Positions 3,998 to 58,691 of a stretch of 64,000 nt of DNA are shown here, piece after piece. The notes beneath the pieces were generated by a model. That model worked only from the letters and a program-made list of their open reading frames with translations, was not told where the DNA came from and made no database searches. Position 1 is the stretch's first letter; every line of letters starts with the position of its first letter. The stretch spans positions 6,655,501 through 6,719,500 of the forward strand of contig CP034537.1 of the NCBI GenBank assembly GCA_004000515.1, given 5' to 3'. The DNA is from Pseudomonas poae (GTDB lineage Bacteria > Pseudomonadota > Gammaproteobacteria > Pseudomonadales > Pseudomonadaceae). The position numbers and the translations under genes are program-made.

Positions 3998-4011
3998 GCG
4001 CTGCGCAGCGC
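3998..4011. promoter_or_regulatory. Perfect 14-bp palindrome just upstream of the TetR gene
   Basis: GCGCTGCGCAGCGC is self-complementary and ends 10 bases before the first possible ATG (4022) and 49 before the preferred one (4061). It may be an operator or a leader hairpin. Confidence 0.4.
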
Positions 4012-4060
4012 CGGTGCTACCATGCGCAACCGCCAGTCTTGGCAAGGAAATTCCAGGTTT

Positions 4061-4876: not shown

Positions 4877-5335
4877 ATGCCTGAACTTGCTACCTCATAC
4901 CGCCTGCGTATCGGGCGGTTCAGCGAACGCAATCGCATTTATCTGATCACCACCAACACCCACGAACGTGTGCCAATTTTCAGTAACTTTCATCTGGGCC
5001 GCTTGGTGGTTTGGCAATTTAGACTCGCTCACTATAAAGGCTTGGCGAACTCCTTGGCATGGGTGGTGATGCCTGACCATTTCCACTGGCTGGTCGAACT
5101 GCAAAAGGGCTCATTAGGCGATTTGATGTGCCAGGTGAAATCCAACAGTACCCGAAGTGTGAATGGCGCCACAGGCCGTAAAGGCCGCCTTTGGCAAACA
5201 AGCTTTCATGACCGGGCACTGCGAAAAGAGGATGACTTGGTGAAAATGGCTCGGTATGTGGTGGCCAATCCTTTGCGGGCAGGCTTGGTGAAGCGAGTTG
5301 GCGACTATCCGCTGTGGGATGCGATTTGGGTTTAG
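4877..5335 (+). CDS. REP-associated tyrosine transposase (RAYT)
   Basis: Single-strand DNA transposase-like protein of the IS200/IS605-related Y1 family that processes REP sequences; 152 aa. The HUH metal site is in MPDHFHWL (His68 and His70) and the catalytic tyrosine is Tyr127 in ARYVVANPLRAGLV, a context typical of RAYTs. GAGAGG sits just upstream of the ATG at 4877. The gene is a single copy flanked on each side by an inverted REP pair of the same type (4688-4780 and 5356-5429), the canonical arrangement of a RAYT with its cognate REPs. RAYTs are normally domesticated, non-spreading genes that help disperse REPINs. Confidence 0.93.
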   Translation: MPELATSYRLRIGRFSERNRIYLITTNTHERVPIFSNFHLGRLVVWQFRLAHYKGLANSLAWVVMPDHFHWLVELQKGSLGDLMCQVKSNSTRSVNGATGRKGRLWQTSFHDRALRKEDDLVKMARYVVANPLRAGLVKRVGDYPLWDAIWV

Positions 5336-48358: not shown

Positions 48359-49553
48359 CCGCGCCGATCTTGTGGATCGACAGGTCTGCGCCGTAATACT
48401 CCTCCTCCTGGCTCAGGCGAAGCCCGTGCACGCGCTTGATCACGCCGTACACCAACAGGCCGCCCCCAGCGCCACTACCACGCCCAGGCCTGTGCCGATC
48501 AACTGGCTGATCAAGCTGACGCCGCCCAGGCCGCCCAGCGCGGTCTGGCCGAAGATCCCGCAGGCAATGCCGCCCCACACGCCGCACAGGCCGTGCAAAG
48601 GCCACACGCCGAGCACGTCATCGATCTTCCAGCGGTCCTGGGCTGCGATAAAGCACCATACAAACAAAGCACCGGCAACGGCGCCCGTGACCAGCGCGCC
48701 CACTGGGTGCATCAGGTCGGAGCCGGCGCAAATCGCAACCAGCCCGGCCAATGGGCCGTTGTGCAGGAAGCCAGGGTCATTACGACCGATGATCAGCGCC
48801 GCCACCGTGCCACCGACCATCGCCATCAGCGAATTGACCGCCACCAGACCACTGACGCCGTTCAGGGTTTGCGCGCTCATTACGTTAAAACCAAACCAGC
48901 CGACAATCAGAATCCACGACCCCAAGGCCAGGAACGGGATGCTGGACGGCGCAAACGCTACCAGCCGCCCTTCGCGGTAGCGCCCGTTGCGCGGGCCCAG
49001 CAACAGCACCGCCGCCAGCGCCAGCCAACCGCCCATGGCGTGCACCACCACGGAACCGGCGAAGTCATGGAAGCTGGCGCCGAACGTCGCCAGCAACCAG
49101 GCTTGCAAGCCGAAATTACCGTTCCACACCATGCCTTCGAAAAACGGGTAGATAAACGCTACGATCAACGCGGTAGCGCACAACTGCGGAACAAAACGTG
49201 CACGCTCGGCGATGCCGCCGGAGATGATCGCAGGGATCGCCGCCGCGAAGGTCAGCAGGAAGAAAAAACTTCACCAGGCCATAGCCATGATCGTCGCTGA
49301 TCACTGCCGCCGGCTGCATGAAGCTGACGCCGTAGGAGATCCAATAGCCTATAAAGAAATAGGCCAAGGTGGAGATGGCGAAGTCGCTGAGGATCTTCGA
49401 CAGTGCGTTGACCTGGTTCTTCTGGCGCACAGTGCCGACTTCCAGGAACGCGAAACCGGCGTGCATGGCCAGGACCATGACCGCACCGATCAAGATAAAC
49501 AGGGTGTTGGAGCTGTGGACGAGGGTGTCCACTGCACTTTGCAAATTTTCCAT
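48345..49553 (-). CDS. amtB: Ammonium transporter AmtB, two frameshifts
   Basis: Trimeric ammonium channel, ~402 aa. Readable: NTLFILIGAVMVLAMHAGFA, LEVGTVRQKNQVNALSKI, DFAISTLAYFFIGYWISYG, FHDFAGSVVVHAMGGWLALA (first pore His), GALVTGAVAGALFVWC and HGLCGVWGGIACGIFG (second His). An extra base in the A6 run 49263-49268 and a missing base in the C run 48463-48467 break the frame. Corrected joins read LVKFFFLLTFAAAIPAIISG and VVALGGGLLVYGVIKRVHG. Start ATG 49553 (MENLQSAVDTLVHSS). No glnK (PII) gene is adjacent, unlike the usual glnK-amtB pair. Confidence 0.92.
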
Positions 49554-49590
49554 GGAGGTTGGCAGGCCTGCAATAAAGGCAAAAAGCACC

Positions 49591-49669
49591 AAAGCGGTTC
49601 AAGCCAGGGTTTCGCGCACTAATTTGGCACCACCGGTCCCACCCCTCTGCAGTGGGCGTGAACCGCTTT
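49591..49669. repeat. 11-bp inverted repeat in the amtB leader region
   Basis: AAAGCGGTTCA (49591-49601) and TGAACCGCTTT (49659-49669) are exact reverse complements, 57 bases apart, about 40-115 bases upstream of the amtB start. They may form a leader stem or be two operator halves. Confidence 0.55.
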
Positions 49670-51030: not shown

Positions 51031-52194
51031 GTGATCGACGGGCAACCGCTCGCCTGCTTCCAGCCGTTTATCGACACGGCCACTGGCCGTATCGCCGGCG
51101 TCGAGGCTCTCGGCCGCCTGCGCCAGGCTGACGGCCGCTTGCAGTCTGTAGGCCCGTTGTTCGCCGACCCACGGACCCCAAGCGTGACATTGCGCCGCCT
51201 CGACCGGCAGATTCGCGACAACGCCTTGAGCCGCTTGCATGAAGCTCCCGAAGATTGGTTCCTGAGCCTGAACATCTCACCGCGCTGGATCAACCGGCTG
51301 CGCCCGGGCCAGGCACTGCCGAGCCTCAAGCAGATTCACAACCACGGGGTGGACCCGCGGCGCATCGTGTTCGAGATCACCGAACTGGGCGGCGATATCC
51401 GGCGTTTGGCGGATGTAGTGGCGCGTTACCGTGAGGCCGGCGCGCGTATCGCCATCGATGACTTCGGCGCAGGTTATTCACAGTTGGACCGGGTGCTGGC
51501 GTTGCAGCCGGACATTCTCAAGCTGGACATGCGCCTGTTCCAGGAAGCTGCGCGGGGCGGGCCGAGCAGTGAGGTGGTACGAGCGCTGGCACAGATGGCC
51601 GAGAAGACGGGCTGCTGGATCATCGCCGAAGGCGTGGAAACCGAAGCGCAGTTGAGCTTTGCCCTGGAGTGCGGCTCGCGTTATGTACAGGGTTATCTGT
51701 TTGCACAGGCGCAGCTGGATTGGTTCGCCGCCGACGCTTTCGTGCCACGCTTTGCCGAACTGCGCGGCGAATACGTCCAGCAAAAACTGGCGGAGCGAGG
51801 GCGAGTCATGCACTTGCGGGAACAATTGGCCGAGCTGATGAACATCCTGCAAGCCTGGGCCCAGGCTCAGGCACCACTGAGCCAATTACCCCAACTGCCG
51901 GCCTTTCCCTGGCTGCTGCGGTTTTACCAATGCGACCCCCATGGCACCCAACTGACCCCCAACTTCGAGTGGCGCCAGGATGCCTGGCAGGCCGACAGCC
52001 GCTACCTGGGGCACAACTGGTCATGGCGCCCATACTTCTATCACCTGCTCGCCGAGGGCTGGGAAGAGCGACGCCTGACCCTGTCGTCGACCTACCGTGA
52101 TGCAACGAGCAATCAGTACTGCCTCACCGCCGGACAATTCTTCGATAACGGTCAGCGCTTGCTGTTAATCGATATCGACGCCGCCGGGCTGTAG
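51031..52194 (+). CDS. EAL-domain c-di-GMP phosphodiesterase with C-terminal sensor-like domain
   Basis: 387 aa. The EAL domain fills residues ~1-240. It keeps GVEALGRLR (an EAL variant with Gly after EAL), SLNISPRWI, VFEITELGG, IAIDDFGAGYSQLDR, LKLDMRLFQE, IAEGVETEAQLSFAL and YVQGYLFAQ, so the catalytic Glu, Asn, Asp-Asp, Lys and Glu are present and activity is likely. After a helical linker (REQLAELMNILQAWAQAQA), the C-terminal ~110 residues, with WSWRPYFYHLLAEGW and LSSTYRDATSNQYCLTAGQF, look like a PDC/Cache ligand domain without membrane helices. Start GTG 51031 follows AAGGAGG. Confidence 0.88.
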   Translation: MIDGQPLACFQPFIDTATGRIAGVEALGRLRQADGRLQSVGPLFADPRTPSVTLRRLDRQIRDNALSRLHEAPEDWFLSLNISPRWINRLRPGQALPSLKQIHNHGVDPRRIVFEITELGGDIRRLADVVARYREAGARIAIDDFGAGYSQLDRVLALQPDILKLDMRLFQEAARGGPSSEVVRALAQMAEKTGCWIIAEGVETEAQLSFALECGSRYVQGYLFAQAQLDWFAADAFVPRFAELRGEYVQQKLAERGRVMHLREQLAELMNILQAWAQAQAPLSQLPQLPAFPWLLRFYQCDPHGTQLTPNFEWRQDAWQADSRYLGHNWSWRPYFYHLLAEGWEERRLTLSSTYRDATSNQYCLTAGQFFDNGQRLLLIDIDAAGL

Positions 52195-52263: not shown

Positions 52264-53595
52264 TTGGATTGGCCCACCCTGCTTACCCGCGAACGCCTTG
52301 GAAAGCCCCTGCACAGCCCGGAAGAACTGGGCCGCAGCCCCTTTCACAAAGACCATGACCGCATCATTTTCTCCGGCGCGTTTCGCCGCCTGGGCCGCAA
52401 GACCCAAGTGCACCCGGTGTCCAGCAACGACCATATCCATACGCGCCTGACCCACTCCCTGGAAGTCAGCTGCGTGGGCCGCTCCCTCGGCATGCGCGTG
52501 GGTGAAACCCTGCGCGACGCCCTGCCCGACTGGTGCGACCCGAGCGACCTGGGCATGGTGGTGCAATCGGCTTGCCTGGCCCATGACATCGGCAACCCAC
52601 CGTTCGGGCACTCCGGCGAAGACGCGATTCGCCACTGGTTCCAACAGGCGGCAGGGCGCGGCTGGCTGGACGACATGAGCACCGCTGAACGCAATGACTT
52701 CCTCAACTTCGAAGGCAATGCCCAGGGTTTCCGCGTGCTGACCCAGCTGGAGTACCACCAGTTTGATGGCGGTACGCGGTTGACCTACGCCACCTTGGGC
52801 ACTTACCTGAAATACCCCTGGACAGCGCGCCACGCTGATTCGCTGGGCTACAAGAAACACAAGTTCGGCTGCTACCAGAGTGAGCTGCCGATTCTTGAGC
52901 AGATCGCCCACAAACTTGGTCTGCCGCAACTGGAAGAACAGCGTTGGGCCCGCCATCCGCTGGTGTATCTGATGGAGGCCGCGGATGACATCTGCTACGC
53001 CTTGATCGATCTGGAAGACGGCCTGGAAATGGACCTTTTGGAGTACGCCGAAGTCGAGTCGTTGCTGCTCGACTTGGTGGGCGATGACTTGCCGCAGACT
53101 TATCGGCAGCTCGGCTCCCAGGACTCTCGCCGGCGCAAGCTGGCGATCCTGCGCGGCAAAGCCATTGAACATTTGACCAACGCGGCGGCCCGGGCCTTTG
53201 TCGAGCAGCAGGATACCCTGCTGGCCGGCTCACTGCCTGGCGACTTGGTGGAGCACATGCACGGCCCCGCCAAACGCTGTGTGCTGGATGCCAAGGACAT
53301 GGCCCGCAAGAAAATCTTCCAGGACAAGCGCAAGACGCTACATGAAATCGGCGCCTACACCACCCTGGAAATCCTCTTGAACGCCTTCTGCGGAGCGGCC
53401 CTGGAGCAGCATGGCGGGCGTACGCCATCGTTCAAGAACCGGCGCATTCTCGACTTGCTGGGCAATAACGCACCGAACCCCGCATGGCCGTTGCACGCCT
53501 CGTTCCTGCGCATGATCGACTTTATTGCCGGGATGACCGACAGCTATGCCACCGAGATGGCGCGAGAAATGACCGGACGCTCCAGCCCACAATAA
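52264..53595 (+). CDS. dgt: dGTPase-like deoxynucleotide triphosphohydrolase
   Basis: HD-domain enzyme hydrolysing dNTPs to nucleosides and triphosphate, 443 aa. The HD residues are in [20 protein letters not shown] and [20 protein letters not shown], with [20 protein letters not shown] as the later Asp motif. The N-terminal [20 protein letters not shown] is family-typical. Start is a TTG at 52264 ([11 protein letters not shown]), chosen because GGAGAGT lies ahead and no ATG occurs before the conserved RSPF segment. Intact frame. Confidence 0.95.
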
Positions 53596-53759: not shown

Positions 53760-54155
53760 ATGCCCAGATACCCCCTCAGCATCCTATTGGTGGAGGACCA
53801 TCCCTTTCAACTGCTGGCCACCCAATGTCTGCTCAGAAGCTTTGGCTTCGACCAACTGACCCCTGCGGAAAATGCAGAACAGGCGATCCGCTCGATGACG
53901 CAGACCGAAACTCCTTTCGACATCATCCTATGCGATCAATGCCTGCCTGATCTTCCCGGTCTCGAATTGATTGAGATTGCCAGCCGCCGGCGCTTTATCA
54001 ATTACGCCATCCTTCTCAGCGGACTGCCTACCGAAGAGCTGGTGACCCTGGAATTCCAGGCGCTCAAACGCGAACTACCCCTGCTGGGCTATTTATCGAA
54101 GCCTTTGAATAAAGATGCACTTATAGCGTTGATCAAGCCGTTACTTAGGTCGTAA
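53760..54155 (+). CDS. Stand-alone receiver protein (RocR-receiver-like)
   Basis: 131-aa single CheY-like receiver. The acidic pair is Glu12-Asp13 in ILLVEDHPFQLLATQ, the phospho-acceptor Asp59 is in DIILCDQCLPDLPGLEL, the Ser/Thr switch is in ILLSG, and the Lys is in LGYLSKPLN. The sequence resembles the N-terminal receiver of RocR (EDEPFQR, ICDLQM, LGKPF) but no output domain follows: the next 250 bases are non-coding and AT-richer. It lies before a LuxR-type regulator and a BvgS-like kinase, so is probably a competing or side phospho-acceptor. Confidence 0.85.
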   Translation: MPRYPLSILLVEDHPFQLLATQCLLRSFGFDQLTPAENAEQAIRSMTQTETPFDIILCDQCLPDLPGLELIEIASRRRFINYAILLSGLPTEELVTLEFQALKRELPLLGYLSKPLNKDALIALIKPLLRS

Positions 54156-54404
54156 ATGTAGGACTTTAAACGTTACACGCCAGGAAAATCACCTGAAGGA
54201 ATATCGTTAATTCCCTTTACTCACTCCTAAGCCTGCGCAGCTTCGAATTGTTTATATGCCGCTTCCCAAAGCCTTACCAACCAGTAGGCCTATACCTTTT
54301 TTTATGTAGGATATTTCCTGTTTTATATCCACTCCCCCTCAGCTTCATGCTCACCCCTCTTCTTCTGAGCTAATGTGCCCGCTTTATTTGCACTTGCATG
54401 GAAT
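54156..54404. other. AT-rich intergenic region ahead of the BvgA-like gene
   Basis: About 250 bases visibly lower in GC than the surroundings (AATTGTTTATATGCC, TTTTTTTATGTAGG, TTTTATATCC). No ORF or RNA gene seen. It probably contains the promoter of the regulator-kinase pair; possible sign of transferred DNA. Confidence 0.5.
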
Positions 54405-54410
54405 ATGATC

Positions 54411-55037
54411 ATGAACACAGTTTTTATTATTGATGACCACCCGGTTATACGGCTTGCGATTCGAATGTTGCTAGAACACGAAGGCTACAAAGTGGTGGGT
54501 GAAACGGATAACGGATGCGACGCCATACAAATGGTCCGCGAATGTCTGCCTGATCTCATCATTCTGGATATCAGTATTCCGAAATTGGATGGACTCGAAG
54601 TGCTATGCCGTTTCAACGCGATGAATACGCCGATGAAAACACTGATACTGACAGCCCAGTCCCCGACCCTGTTCGCCACACGTTGCATGCGCTCGGGTGC
54701 CGATGGCTACGTGTGCAAGGAAGGTGACCTGAGCGAGCTGCTCAGCGCCATTCGTGCGGTGCTGTCCGGCTACAACTACTTCCCCAGCCAGGCCTTGAGT
54801 GCGGGTGGTGTCGACGGCGTCGAAGCCCAGGAACTTGAACTGTTCAAGAGCGTCAACGACAGGGAACTAATGGTCTTGCAACTTTTTGCACAAGGTCGCA
54901 CCAATAAGGAAATTGCCAAAGGCATGTTCCTCAGTAACAAAACCGTCAGCACTTATAAAAAGAGGCTCATGCAAAAACTTCAAGCCAAATCCTTGGTAGA
55001 ACTTATCGAGATGGCAAAACGAAACGCGCTAGTGTGA
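54411..55037 (+). CDS. BvgA/RocA-like LuxR-type response regulator
   Basis: 208-aa (or 210 from ATG 54405) two-domain regulator. The receiver (residues ~1-120) has VFIIDDHPVIRLAIRMLLEH, phospho-Asp in LIILDISIPKLDGL, the switch Thr in LILTAQ and the Lys in YVCKEGDL. The LuxR/FixJ HTH at the C-terminus is VNDRELMVLQLFAQGRTNKE, IAKGMFLSNKTVSTYKKRLM. It precedes the BvgS-like kinase by two bases, so the two form an operon and a cognate pair. Codon use is more AT-rich at the start than in neighbours. Confidence 0.92.
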   Translation: MNTVFIIDDHPVIRLAIRMLLEHEGYKVVGETDNGCDAIQMVRECLPDLIILDISIPKLDGLEVLCRFNAMNTPMKTLILTAQSPTLFATRCMRSGADGYVCKEGDLSELLSAIRAVLSGYNYFPSQALSAGGVDGVEAQELELFKSVNDRELMVLQLFAQGRTNKEIAKGMFLSNKTVSTYKKRLMQKLQAKSLVELIEMAKRNALV

Positions 55038-55039
55038 GA

Positions 55040-58000
55040 ATGCGGATGCCCAGGCGTATAAAGGACTATCTGTTTACATTGAGTGCCGGCTTGTGCTTTA
55101 GCACTGCCGTGCTCGCGAACCATCAAACGGGCCCGGAACATTTCACCTTATTGAGCCGCTCAGGCTCCGTCCAACTGGATACCCATCTGGACAAGACACA
55201 ACGCCAATGGCTGCAAAACAAGCGCGAATTGGTGCTGGGCACTGCCTCACCTGACTACCCTCCCTTTGACCTCACCTCCAGCGGTCGTGATTATGAGGGC
55301 CTTACCGCCGACTATGCTGGCCTGCTGGCCAAAGTTCTGGCTTTGCCAGTGAAAGTACTGCGCTATCCTTCAAGGGAGGCAGCCATCCATGCCCTTGAGG
55401 CGGGGGGAAATTGATTTACTGGGCTCCTCCAACGGCTTTGAAGCAGAAAACCAGAACCTCACCTTGTCCAAGCCGTATGCCGTAGACCAGCCCGTACTGG
55501 TGACCCGTGAAGGTGAAACCCGCAGCCTCAGCGACGGACTGGCCGGGATGCGCCTGGCCCTGGTCTATCACTATTTGCCCATGAGTGAAGTGGAAAAGCT
55601 CTACCCCGAAGCGATCATCCGTGCCTACCCCTCTTATCAAAATGCGTTAAATGCCGTGGCATTCGACCAGGCAGACGTGTTCCTCGGCGATACCATTTCC
55701 ACTCACTACATGATCAACAAGGGCTACCTCAAAAACATTCGAATGGCCAACTTCGGCAAACACGAGGCGTACGGGTTCAGCTTTGCCATGCTCCGGCATC
55801 AAACAAACCTCATAGGCATCATCGACGCCGTGCTGACGGCCGTACCCACCAATGAACGGGAAACGATCGCCAAACGCTGGAGTGCTGGCAGCGATATCTT
55901 GCTGACCGACAAGAAGTTGCAACTGAGCCCACGCGAGGAGCGTTGGCTGAAAGACCATCCGGTGGTCAAAGTGATCGTGAATGAAACCTTCGCCCCGCTG
56001 ACCTTCTTCGACGCGGACGGCAACTTTCGCGGCATCACCGCCGACCTGCTGGAACTGGTTCGCCTGCGTACGGGGTTACGCTTCGAGATTCAGCGCGAGC
56101 GCGTTGTTCAGACGATGATCGAACAGGTCGACGCCGGGAAGGCAGACATCATTGGCGCCATCGTACCCAGTACAGAACGGGAGGCTCGATTGAATTTCAG
56201 TCGTCCCTACCTGGAAAACTCCTATGTGATGTTGACGCGCAAGGACAACCACGCACCGACCAGCCTGGAGGAAATGCAAGGCAAGCGCCTGGCCGTCACG
56301 CAAGGCAGCCCCATGACAACGTTTCTGCGAGAAAATTTTCCGACTATTCAATTGGTAGAAACAGGCGACAATTTCAAATCCGCTGAACTGCTTGTACAAG
56401 GGCACGTCGACGGCGCCGTAAATACATTGGTCATCGCCAACTATTTCCTCTCCTCCCCAACGTTCCTGGACAAGATTCAAATCAGCTTCAGCGTCGGCAC
56501 GATGCCCGCCATCTTTTCATTAGCCACCTCACGTCGAGCCACCGAACTCAGCTCGATTCTGGACAAGGCGTTACTGAGCATCGCCCCCGATGAGCTGGGT
56601 GTGATCAATAGCCGCTGGCGCGGCTACACCGCGGCCTCCGACAGTTATTGGCGCAACTACCACCAACTGATTACCCAAATCATCATCGGTACCGGGTTGC
56701 TGCTGCTGATTTCCCTGACCTGGAACGCCTACATGCGCCGCCAGATCAAACACCGCAAGATGGCCGAGCGCGCCCTGAATGATCAGTTTGAATTCATGCG
56801 CGCACTGGTCAATGAAACGCCACACCCCATCTACGTACGCGATCGCAAAGGCTTGCTGCAGACCTGCAACGACAGCTACCTGCAAGTTTTCAATGTGAAA
56901 CGCGAAGAGGTGATCGGCAAAAGCGCGATCCGGATGAGCGCGGTACTGGAAACGGATGCGGCGAAACTTCATGCCGACTACCAACGCGTGATGGCCGAAG
57001 GCAATCCGATGATCCTGGATCGGACCCTGAATATTCGCGGAAAAAACTCACGATCTACCACTGGATCCTGCCGTACCGCGACTCCATCGGCGAAGTCCAA
57101 GGCATCATCGGTGGCTGGATCGACATCAGTGAACGACGCCAGTTGTTCGACGAAATTCGCGCCGCCAAGGAGCGCGCCGACGAAGCCAACCGAGCCAAGA
57201 GTACGTTCCTTGCGACCATGAGTCATGAAATCCGTACGCCGATGAACGCGGTGATCGGCATGCTGGAGCTGACCCTGAAGCGGGCCGACCAAGGTCATCT
57301 CGATCGCCCGGCCATCGAGGTGGCCTATAGCTCGGCGAAGGACCTGCTGGAACTGATCGGCGACATTCTCGACATCGCGCGCATTGAGTCGGGCCGTCTG
57401 AGCCTGGCACCCGAACGCGTCAACCTGCGGGAGGTGATCGCGTCGGTGGTCCGTGTTTTCGACGGCCTGGCACGCCAGAAAACCCTCAGCTTGCTGCTGG
57501 AGTTCCAGCCCGACCTGGACAACACCGAAGTGCTGATCGACCCGCTGCGTTTCAAGCAGGTGTTGTCCAACCTGATCAGCAACGCGATCAAGTTCACCGA
57601 GCGCGGCCAAGTAAAAATCAAAGTGGAAGTATTGCCCACCGAACTGGCACAGCAAATCGAAATGAAACTGGTAGTGGAAGACACCGGCATAGGCATCAGT
57701 CGGGATGACCAGTTGCGCCTGTTTGAACCCTTTGCCCAGGCTGACAATTCCGGGCATTTGGCCAGGAGTGGTGCCGGCCTGGGGCTGGTGATCTGCCGTA
57801 GCTTGTGCGCAATGATGGGCGGGCAATTGAGCTTGAGCAGTGTGCCAATGGTGGGCACCCAGGTGCATATCAGCCTGAAAATGACCCGACTGCAACCCAT
57901 GCGCGCGGTGGAGGAAATCAAGCCCGTGGCACAAGTCGCCGCGCCGGTATTGAATGTGTTAGTCGTGGACGATCATCCGGCGAACCGCCTGTTGATGTGC

Positions 58001-58691
58001 CAGCAACTGGCTTACCTGGGACACCAGTTCACTGCGGCCAACCACGGCGCGGCGGGGTTCCTGGCATGGCGTCACGAACACTTCGACTTGGTCATAGCTG
58101 ACTGCAACATGCCCATCATGAATGGCTACGAATTGAGCCGCTCGATCCGCGAGTATGAACAGCGTGAACAACTGACACCGTGCATGGTGCTGGGCTTTAC
58201 CGCCAACGCTCAGCCCGAAGAAAAACTCCGCTGCGTACAAGCAGGCATGAACGATTGCCTGTTCAAGCCCATCAGCCTCACTGCATTGGAACAGCAACTG
58301 GGACAAATCGCCCCGCAACCTACCAGCCTGGCTCTGGACCTCCGCGATTTCGAGGCCCTTACCGGCGGCGATGCACAGATGAGCCGACGCCTGCTGGAAG
58401 AACTGTTGAACAGCAGCCGCCATGATCGCCTGGAACTGCTCGGGCTGATGGCCAGGCAGGCATCCCCCAGGACATCATCGAACAGGCCCACAAAATAAAA
58501 GGCGCGGCCCGTATCGTTCAGGCGAGCTCACTGGCTGCGCACTGCGAGACCCTGGAACAAGCCTGTACCCGCGACGAGGACCGGCCTCTGATCGAGGCTG
58601 GGGTGAAGTCACTGGAAAAAACTCATGCTGGAACTGGAGCGCGCTCTGCAGGTACAGCTTCAAGACCTGGACAACAAAAAAGGGGAGCTAG
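55040..58691 (+). CDS. BvgS/RocS-like hybrid sensor histidine kinase, four frameshifts
   Basis: ~1215-aa unorthodox kinase. Order: N-terminal signal (residues ~5-28); two periplasmic SBP_bac_3 domains (VLGTASPDYPPFDLTSSG..., then VVKVIVNETFAPLTFFDADG...); TM helix IIIGTGLLLLISLTW; PAS (FMRALVNETPHPIYVRDRKG); HisKA (FLATMSHEIRTPMNAVIGML); HATPase (EDTGIGISRDDQ, SGAGLGLVICRSL); receiver (LNVLVVDDHPANRL, VIADCNMPIMNG); Hpt (AHKIKGAARIV). Breaks: extra G in 55402-55407, missing A in 57051-57056, missing G at 58459-58460, extra A in 58616-58621. The exact C-terminus is uncertain. Senses an unknown periplasmic ligand and feeds the LuxR-type regulator upstream. Confidence 0.88.

Follow-up and report, generated by a model that had tools for sequence, protein, structure and literature searches.

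We analysed a 64,000-nucleotide stretch of the Pseudomonas poae genome (assembly GCA_004000515.1, contig CP034537.1, positions 6,655,501 to 6,719,500 of the forward strand; hereafter the window), in which a stand-alone receiver protein is encoded next to a Roc-like pair of a response regulator and an unorthodox sensor kinase. All features of this locus lie on the plus strand. The receiver, 131 residues long, is encoded by an open reading frame (ORF) that runs from an ATG at 53760 to 54155. In a Pfam scan its only match is a single Response_reg domain (E 1.8e-12), and the residue alignment identifies the acidic pair E12/D13, the phosphoacceptor D59, S87 and K114 as its key positions. After a spacer (54156..54404) comes a LuxR-type response regulator of the RocA/BvgA/EvgA kind (54405..55037; Response_reg and GerE in Pfam), whose top NCBIfam matches, EvgA and FimZ, are both below the equivalog cut-offs. 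It is 53% identical to the regulator of a second Roc-like locus in the same genome (locus B). With the locus B LuxR regulator as query, the genome carries four RocA-like luxR genes at E<=1e-60. Upstream of the receiver, and outside the system, lies a gene that we take to be dgt (52264..53595); it is a neighbour conserved among relatives and served as the anchor for synteny.

The kinase follows, spread in the window over three ORFs (55034–55414, 55389–57221 and 57143–58498) that, aligned to an intact orthologue, run in frame order 2, 3, 2. The first (55034..55414) covers the N-terminus and the start of the first periplasmic domain, and on its own has no Pfam match. The second piece (55389..57044, the ORF continuing to 57221) contains SBP_bac_3 and PAS, and the third (57041..58498, the listed ORF beginning at 57143) HisKA, HATPase_c and Response_reg. 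This last ORF stops at 58498, short of the end of the Hpt region, which is out of frame with it and was placed by eye against an orthologue at approximately 58440..58690. The Hpt domain call itself was made on orthologues: in two of them (L058 and L103) one ORF encodes two SBP_bac_3 domains, PAS, HisKA, HATPase_c, Response_reg and Hpt. Thus, the initial annotation of a BvgS/RocS-like kinase with two periplasmic binding domains and an Hpt gave the right domain list for the family, but in the window no single intact gene encodes the kinase. Among relatives, a kinase of more than 1,100 residues occupies a single ORF in 90 of the 99 loci in which all three pieces were detected. Without the seven of these loci that lack the dgt–luxR arrangement, the count is 84 of 92, and contig ends may cut some of the remaining eight. 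Locus B likewise shows frame changes, and an ammonium-transporter-like gene (named by eye; 48440–49592, minus strand) is split across two frames. Because of these two cases, assembly indels are the likelier cause of the breaks in the kinase, a real pseudogene being also possible.

Among NCBIfam models the receiver scores best with PvrR, a receiver–EAL protein; the 54.7 bits (residues 4–127) are far under the equivalog cut-off, which for the full-length protein stands at 580 bits. In genome searches, the first few matches below the clear orthologues were stand-alone or degenerate receivers (L140, L141, L150 and L151), followed further down the same listing mostly by proteins of about 405–475 residues with 29–38% identity; an EAL domain was present in 21 of the ORFs extracted with receiver queries. 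Moreover, an E-D-x-P-F-Q start and a long stretch ahead of the KP motif are common to most of the rows compared. Comparison with PDB alone would miss this kinship, because the P. aeruginosa RocR structure (3sy8) matches at only E 0.0014 and ranks behind other receivers. In a first tree, with 67 of 68 rows placed, dgt-type stand-alone receivers (28 rows), a sister set (12) and two degenerate rows share a branch (98/95). A smaller tree of 45 rows included more outgroup rows; five long or degenerate rows were dropped, the dgt-type was thinned to 11 and eight sister-set rows were used. There, the stand-alone receivers (19 rows) form one clade (100/99). L024 and L152, two further stand-alone receivers, nest within receiver–EAL proteins in both trees. 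Keeping the receiver–EAL receivers together in the smaller tree costs 0.11 log units (approximately unbiased test, p=0.477). The tree is equally compatible with a clade inside or beside the receiver–EAL receivers, and with a distant ancestor that bore an EAL domain as well as one that lacked it. The receiver is, judging by its sequence, of the RocR/PvrR type and apart from unrelated CheY proteins; the initial annotation had called it RocR-like and had proposed phylogeny as the check. In two further RocR-like receivers, at 5257–5628 of L150 and 5614–5985 of L151, CS replaces CD at the phosphoacceptor position, and these two are likely dead.

In relatives, genes were called by tblastn and stop-to-stop ORFs. 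In a scan of named genomes, from which the best 80 of 215 loci were retained, all 80 titles were Pseudomonas. An even draw of 298 genomes of the genus gave a receiver match at E<=1e-11 in 150; of these, 122 are at E<=1.2e-20 (counted from the listing, with our own genome and a split copy in G128 included) and 28 are weaker kin. The order dgt–receiver–luxR was found in 92 of 107 tabulated loci with flanking dgt and luxR, the other 15 being without the receiver; this ratio is no frequency, as receiver-less loci were fetched deliberately and some strains are present through two collections. An EAL domain is absent from all 107 receiver ORFs with more than 50% identity, a set with one ORF per locus that counts the window's copy and two fragments (83 and 109 residues). 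Likewise, the 120 best database matches listed are single-domain proteins of 126–174 residues. Across an alignment of 94 distinct rows, each 125 residues or longer and one of them from the window, E12, D13, D59, S87 and K114 never vary; split and short copies were left out. The segments V11–Q17 and L57–P63 are invariant or nearly so, and L86, S87 and L89 are invariant. The median ratio of nonsynonymous to synonymous substitution rates (dN/dS) over 15 pairs is 0.106 for the receiver, 0.030 for luxR and 0.017 for dgt, rough values given a receiver dS of 1.0–2.8. The receiver is evidently under purifying selection and, with its phosphorylation residues intact, appears functional.

In a tree of dgt, LuxR and kinase (a quick method applied to 45 of the 84 loci with data, receiver-bearing loci thinned), receiver-less loci that have luxR and the kinase fall into three groups. 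Presence and absence together with a broken receiver in L138, where the gene is split, require four changes; three of them concern the receiver-less group, and the starred branches also force these three. A dgt–LuxR tree of 63 rows, which includes six more distant receiver-less loci, again requires four changes, with only one forced by starred branches. Such counts fit gain and loss equally. Decayed receiver remnants in two receiver-less loci (L127, E 2e-28; L139, E 3e-9) and the split copy in L138 make three or more losses the simplest reading of these sequences. Given the six distant loci, the receiver may have been gained once or be older. On the simplest reading, it represents an old, conserved stand-alone lineage that would predate the split of those Pseudomonas species.

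We favour, at about an even chance, the reading that the receiver is an optional phosphoacceptor of RocR type, competing with the LuxR regulator for phosphate at the Hpt of the kinase. The Hpt would phosphorylate the stand-alone receiver, which would take phosphate from the regulator's share so that less reaches the regulator; the receiver would then be an optional brake or buffer of the kinase–regulator pair, independent of cyclic di-GMP (c-di-GMP). Behind this proposal stand the conservation and synteny of the receiver, its kinship with RocR, its intact phosphorylation residues, purifying selection and its absence from some lineages with the pair, together with findings on the Roc system of P. 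aeruginosa. There, two-hybrid assays show the RocR receiver domain on its own binding the Hpt of both RocS1 and RocS2; RocA1 activates cupC expression, and RocR reduces it (PMC3083521). A receiver of RocR type that lacks an output and has a RocS-like kinase and a RocA-like regulator as neighbours would therefore be expected to draw phosphate from the Hpt that also serves the regulator. A phosphate-sink role had been suggested in the initial annotation and we judge it reasonable; an intact phosphoacceptor site, as in all 94 rows, is what such a role calls for.

The sister stand-alone receivers adjoin a RocA-like gene in both contexts that were read. One of these (L140, 5485–11899, minus strand) has kinase, LuxR regulator, receiver–EAL protein and stand-alone receiver in one row, its stand-alone receiver matching a Pseudomonas arsenicoxydans protein at 100%. 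In the other (L141), stand-alone receiver and LuxR gene are convergent. This neighbourhood, once with a full receiver–EAL protein present, is more in keeping with an independent modulator than with a RocR that has broken. Three groups of loci that keep luxR and kinase without the receiver, two of the loci holding remnants of it, are likewise as expected of a modulator.

Several points weigh against phosphate competition. RocR itself is described as working probably by breaking down c-di-GMP and not through competition (PMC12051241, section 2.4). The receiver is less constrained than luxR and dgt by dN/dS, and it is dispensable, some lineages keeping luxR and the kinase in its absence. In G121 the receiver and dgt are about 80 kb from luxR, and in G254 receiver and luxR are on different contigs. 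In relatives, the receiver match ends 236–431 bases ahead of the luxR match, which gives no sign of co-transcription. Finally, these facts would be explained as well by a binding partner that is not the Hpt.

Such a partner defines the first alternative, an output adaptor that, once phosphorylated, binds and controls another protein, be it an EAL enzyme or something else. CheY acts in this way, by binding and controlling another protein when phosphorylated. The nearly invariant V11–Q17 and L57–P63 segments, together with L86, S87 and L89, suggest a conserved surface, and the RocR-type kinship also speaks for this role. The initial annotation had named as possible partner the nearest EAL protein (51031..52194, plus strand), which, as it stated, has no receiver (EAL and YkuI_C in Pfam) and is separated from the receiver by dgt. 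However, its gene adjoins dgt in 58 of the 80 loci with the receiver and in 12 of the 15 without it (58/22 vs 12/3, Fisher p=0.75; at least 1.4 kb upstream of dgt was required, and 12 receiver-bearing loci had too little). The two are distributed independently, and we rejected this pairing. Other fixed neighbours were sought among window proteins used as queries, and an unlinked partner is possible. An adaptor role seems unlikely, yet credible. At locus B (L147, 4650–5601; G000:C1, 4.31 Mb), a receiver-less EAL protein with an internal frame change precedes the LuxR regulator and kinase. The idea of complementary halves, receiver here and EAL-only partner there, was dropped, the other loci read with the locus B LuxR query being without that gene at the corresponding place.

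Alternatively, the receiver might work with another kinase, encoded elsewhere in the genome, and be at this locus incidentally. Roc-type networks cross-talk widely (PMC3083521, PMC12051241), the genome has four RocA-like genes, and receiver and luxR are apart in G121 and G254. Against this, the receiver stands beside luxR in 92 loci, and the sister receivers in L140 and L141 also adjoin a RocA-like gene. We consider service to another kinase quite unlikely.

The initial annotation interpreted the receiver as a RocR that had lost its EAL output at this locus. Its observation that no EAL follows the receiver holds: the best match to EAL in the window spacer is a chance one (E 1.1, 13 residues, on the other strand), and the spacers of the 92 receiver-bearing and 15 receiver-less relatives gave none at E<=1. 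On these searches we also rejected an EAL masked by a frameshift beyond 54155. The search of relatives that it had proposed found no receiver–EAL gene at the dgt–luxR site in the loci read. With 0 of 107 receiver ORFs carrying EAL and no remnant in the spacers, recent local loss is contradicted, and the stand-alone form is better seen as an old lineage of its own. On the other hand, the receiver is of RocR/PvrR type, the rooted tree puts stand-alone receivers among receiver–EAL ones, so that a very old loss is possible, and the nesting of L024 and L152 indicates that such losses seem to happen. Even so, we regard EAL loss at this site and in this lineage as very improbable. That the receiver is decaying, or that its missing EAL is a sequencing artefact, is hardly credible: the kinase is frame-broken in this assembly, and receivers elsewhere are split (L138) or reduced to remnants (L127 and L139), but relatives already contradict the idea with their single-domain database matches, EAL-free ORFs, invariant residues and dN/dS of about 0.1.

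The spacer between receiver and luxR had been noted as AT-rich and read as suggesting transfer or rearrangement. Its G+C content is indeed low (43% vs 61% for the window). However, relatives are AT-rich here too, with a mean of 46% (38–54%, n=92; the measured stretch begins where the receiver match stops and so takes in a few last codons), as is the dgt–luxR gap of receiver-less loci (48%), and they have a motif in common. The scar interpretation was therefore rejected; by sequence comparison, the spacer is the conserved upstream region of luxR, which we read as its promoter region. The motif is an inverted repeat, GTAGGA-N3-TTCCT, exact at 54306..54319 (plus strand) and a candidate operator for RocA-like regulators. 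Allowing up to one mismatch, the window has two matches vs 0.33 expected, and two were reached in 5 of 100 shuffles. All 107 loci (92/92 receiver-bearing and 15/15 receiver-less) have a looser form, GTAGGA-N4-TC, no more than 250 bases ahead of the luxR match, with 0.24 expected from mononucleotide shuffles. The strict form occurs in 69 of 92 receiver-bearing vs 0 of 15 receiver-less loci. A link between strict motif and receiver was nevertheless dropped, since every locus has the looser form and the contrast reads as clade differences.

Across the whole genome, both strands and up to one mismatch, the strict pattern has 106 matches vs 36 for a reversed control, some sites of this near-palindrome being counted twice. 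It is found, with at most one mismatch, upstream of all four RocA-like luxR genes (G000:C1:103512, 4312599, 6211827 and 6709806), at about 85 bases from the gene for A (the window), 52 for B (one mismatch), 240 for C (gene start estimated) and 120 for D (one mismatch). RocA1, RocA2 and RocA3 of P. aeruginosa are reported to bind highly similar sequences, and RocA3 to activate its own gene (PMC12051241). Because of this similarity and the motif upstream of all four genes, the four regulators may share an operator. Six RocA/Bvg/Evg names were looked for in the main text of a transcription-factor-binding atlas (PMC8041468), in its accessible part, and none was found; the index count gives RocA1 twice. 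Elsewhere in the genome, two tandem sites, one exact and one with a mismatch (L248, G000:C1:531000-539000, at 4009–4043), precede an ORF on the minus strand, with its start near L248:3880, that by eye resembles an outer-membrane or autotransporter-type protein.

Compared with the Roc system of P. aeruginosa (RocS1/RocS2, RocA1/2/3, RocR and RocR3), the locus has the same unorthodox kinase domain set (seen in orthologues, the window pieces being in several frames), a NarL/LuxR-type regulator and an adjoining second receiver protein of RocR type. Both also have several RocA-like regulators, with a common upstream motif here and similar RocA1/2/3 binding sequences there (PMC12051241). Unlike in Roc, no receiver–EAL phosphodiesterase RocR is encoded alongside; the second receiver is a receiver only, in its own clade, and the locus is anchored at dgt. 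A different Roc-like locus, L196 (G032), has receiver–EAL genes flanking the LuxR–kinase pair on both sides. With PvrR and RocR regulators the receiver shares the best NCBIfam model, the E-D-x-P-F-Q start and the stretch before the KP motif, and thus the receiver lineage, but neither the C-terminal EAL domain nor a score near 580 bits. The kinase architecture of BvgS is like that of this locus, and BvgAS has a third partner in BvgR, an EAL protein. The LuxR regulator also matches EvgA and FimZ best, whereas the window locus is below equivalog cut-offs and has an extra stand-alone receiver in comparison with BvgAS and EvgAS. MrrA and LovR of Caulobacter presumably belong to a receiver lineage different from that of the window receiver. 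Like it, they are receiver-only proteins, MrrA acting as a phosphotransfer hub and LovR as a sink for LovK (PMC5964349); the window receiver differs in being tied to one kinase locus. None of the titles listed in our literature search concerned this particular receiver. Single-REC proteins occur throughout the tree of PMC12051241, where they are noted in general; neither fluorescens nor dgt is mentioned in the accessible part of that paper.

More tentatively, and with somewhat less confidence than an even chance, a whole receiver lineage of RocR/PvrR type, devoid of phosphodiesterase, may brake the Roc-like pair purely by phosphate competition. It would be a c-di-GMP-free antagonist, gained or kept once and repeatedly dropped across Pseudomonas, and in L140-type loci it would work beside a full receiver–EAL protein. 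A conserved EAL-free receiver of RocR type at a Roc-like locus separates phosphate competition from c-di-GMP breakdown. Related species with and without the receiver exist naturally, and a direct test of the two roles is therefore possible.

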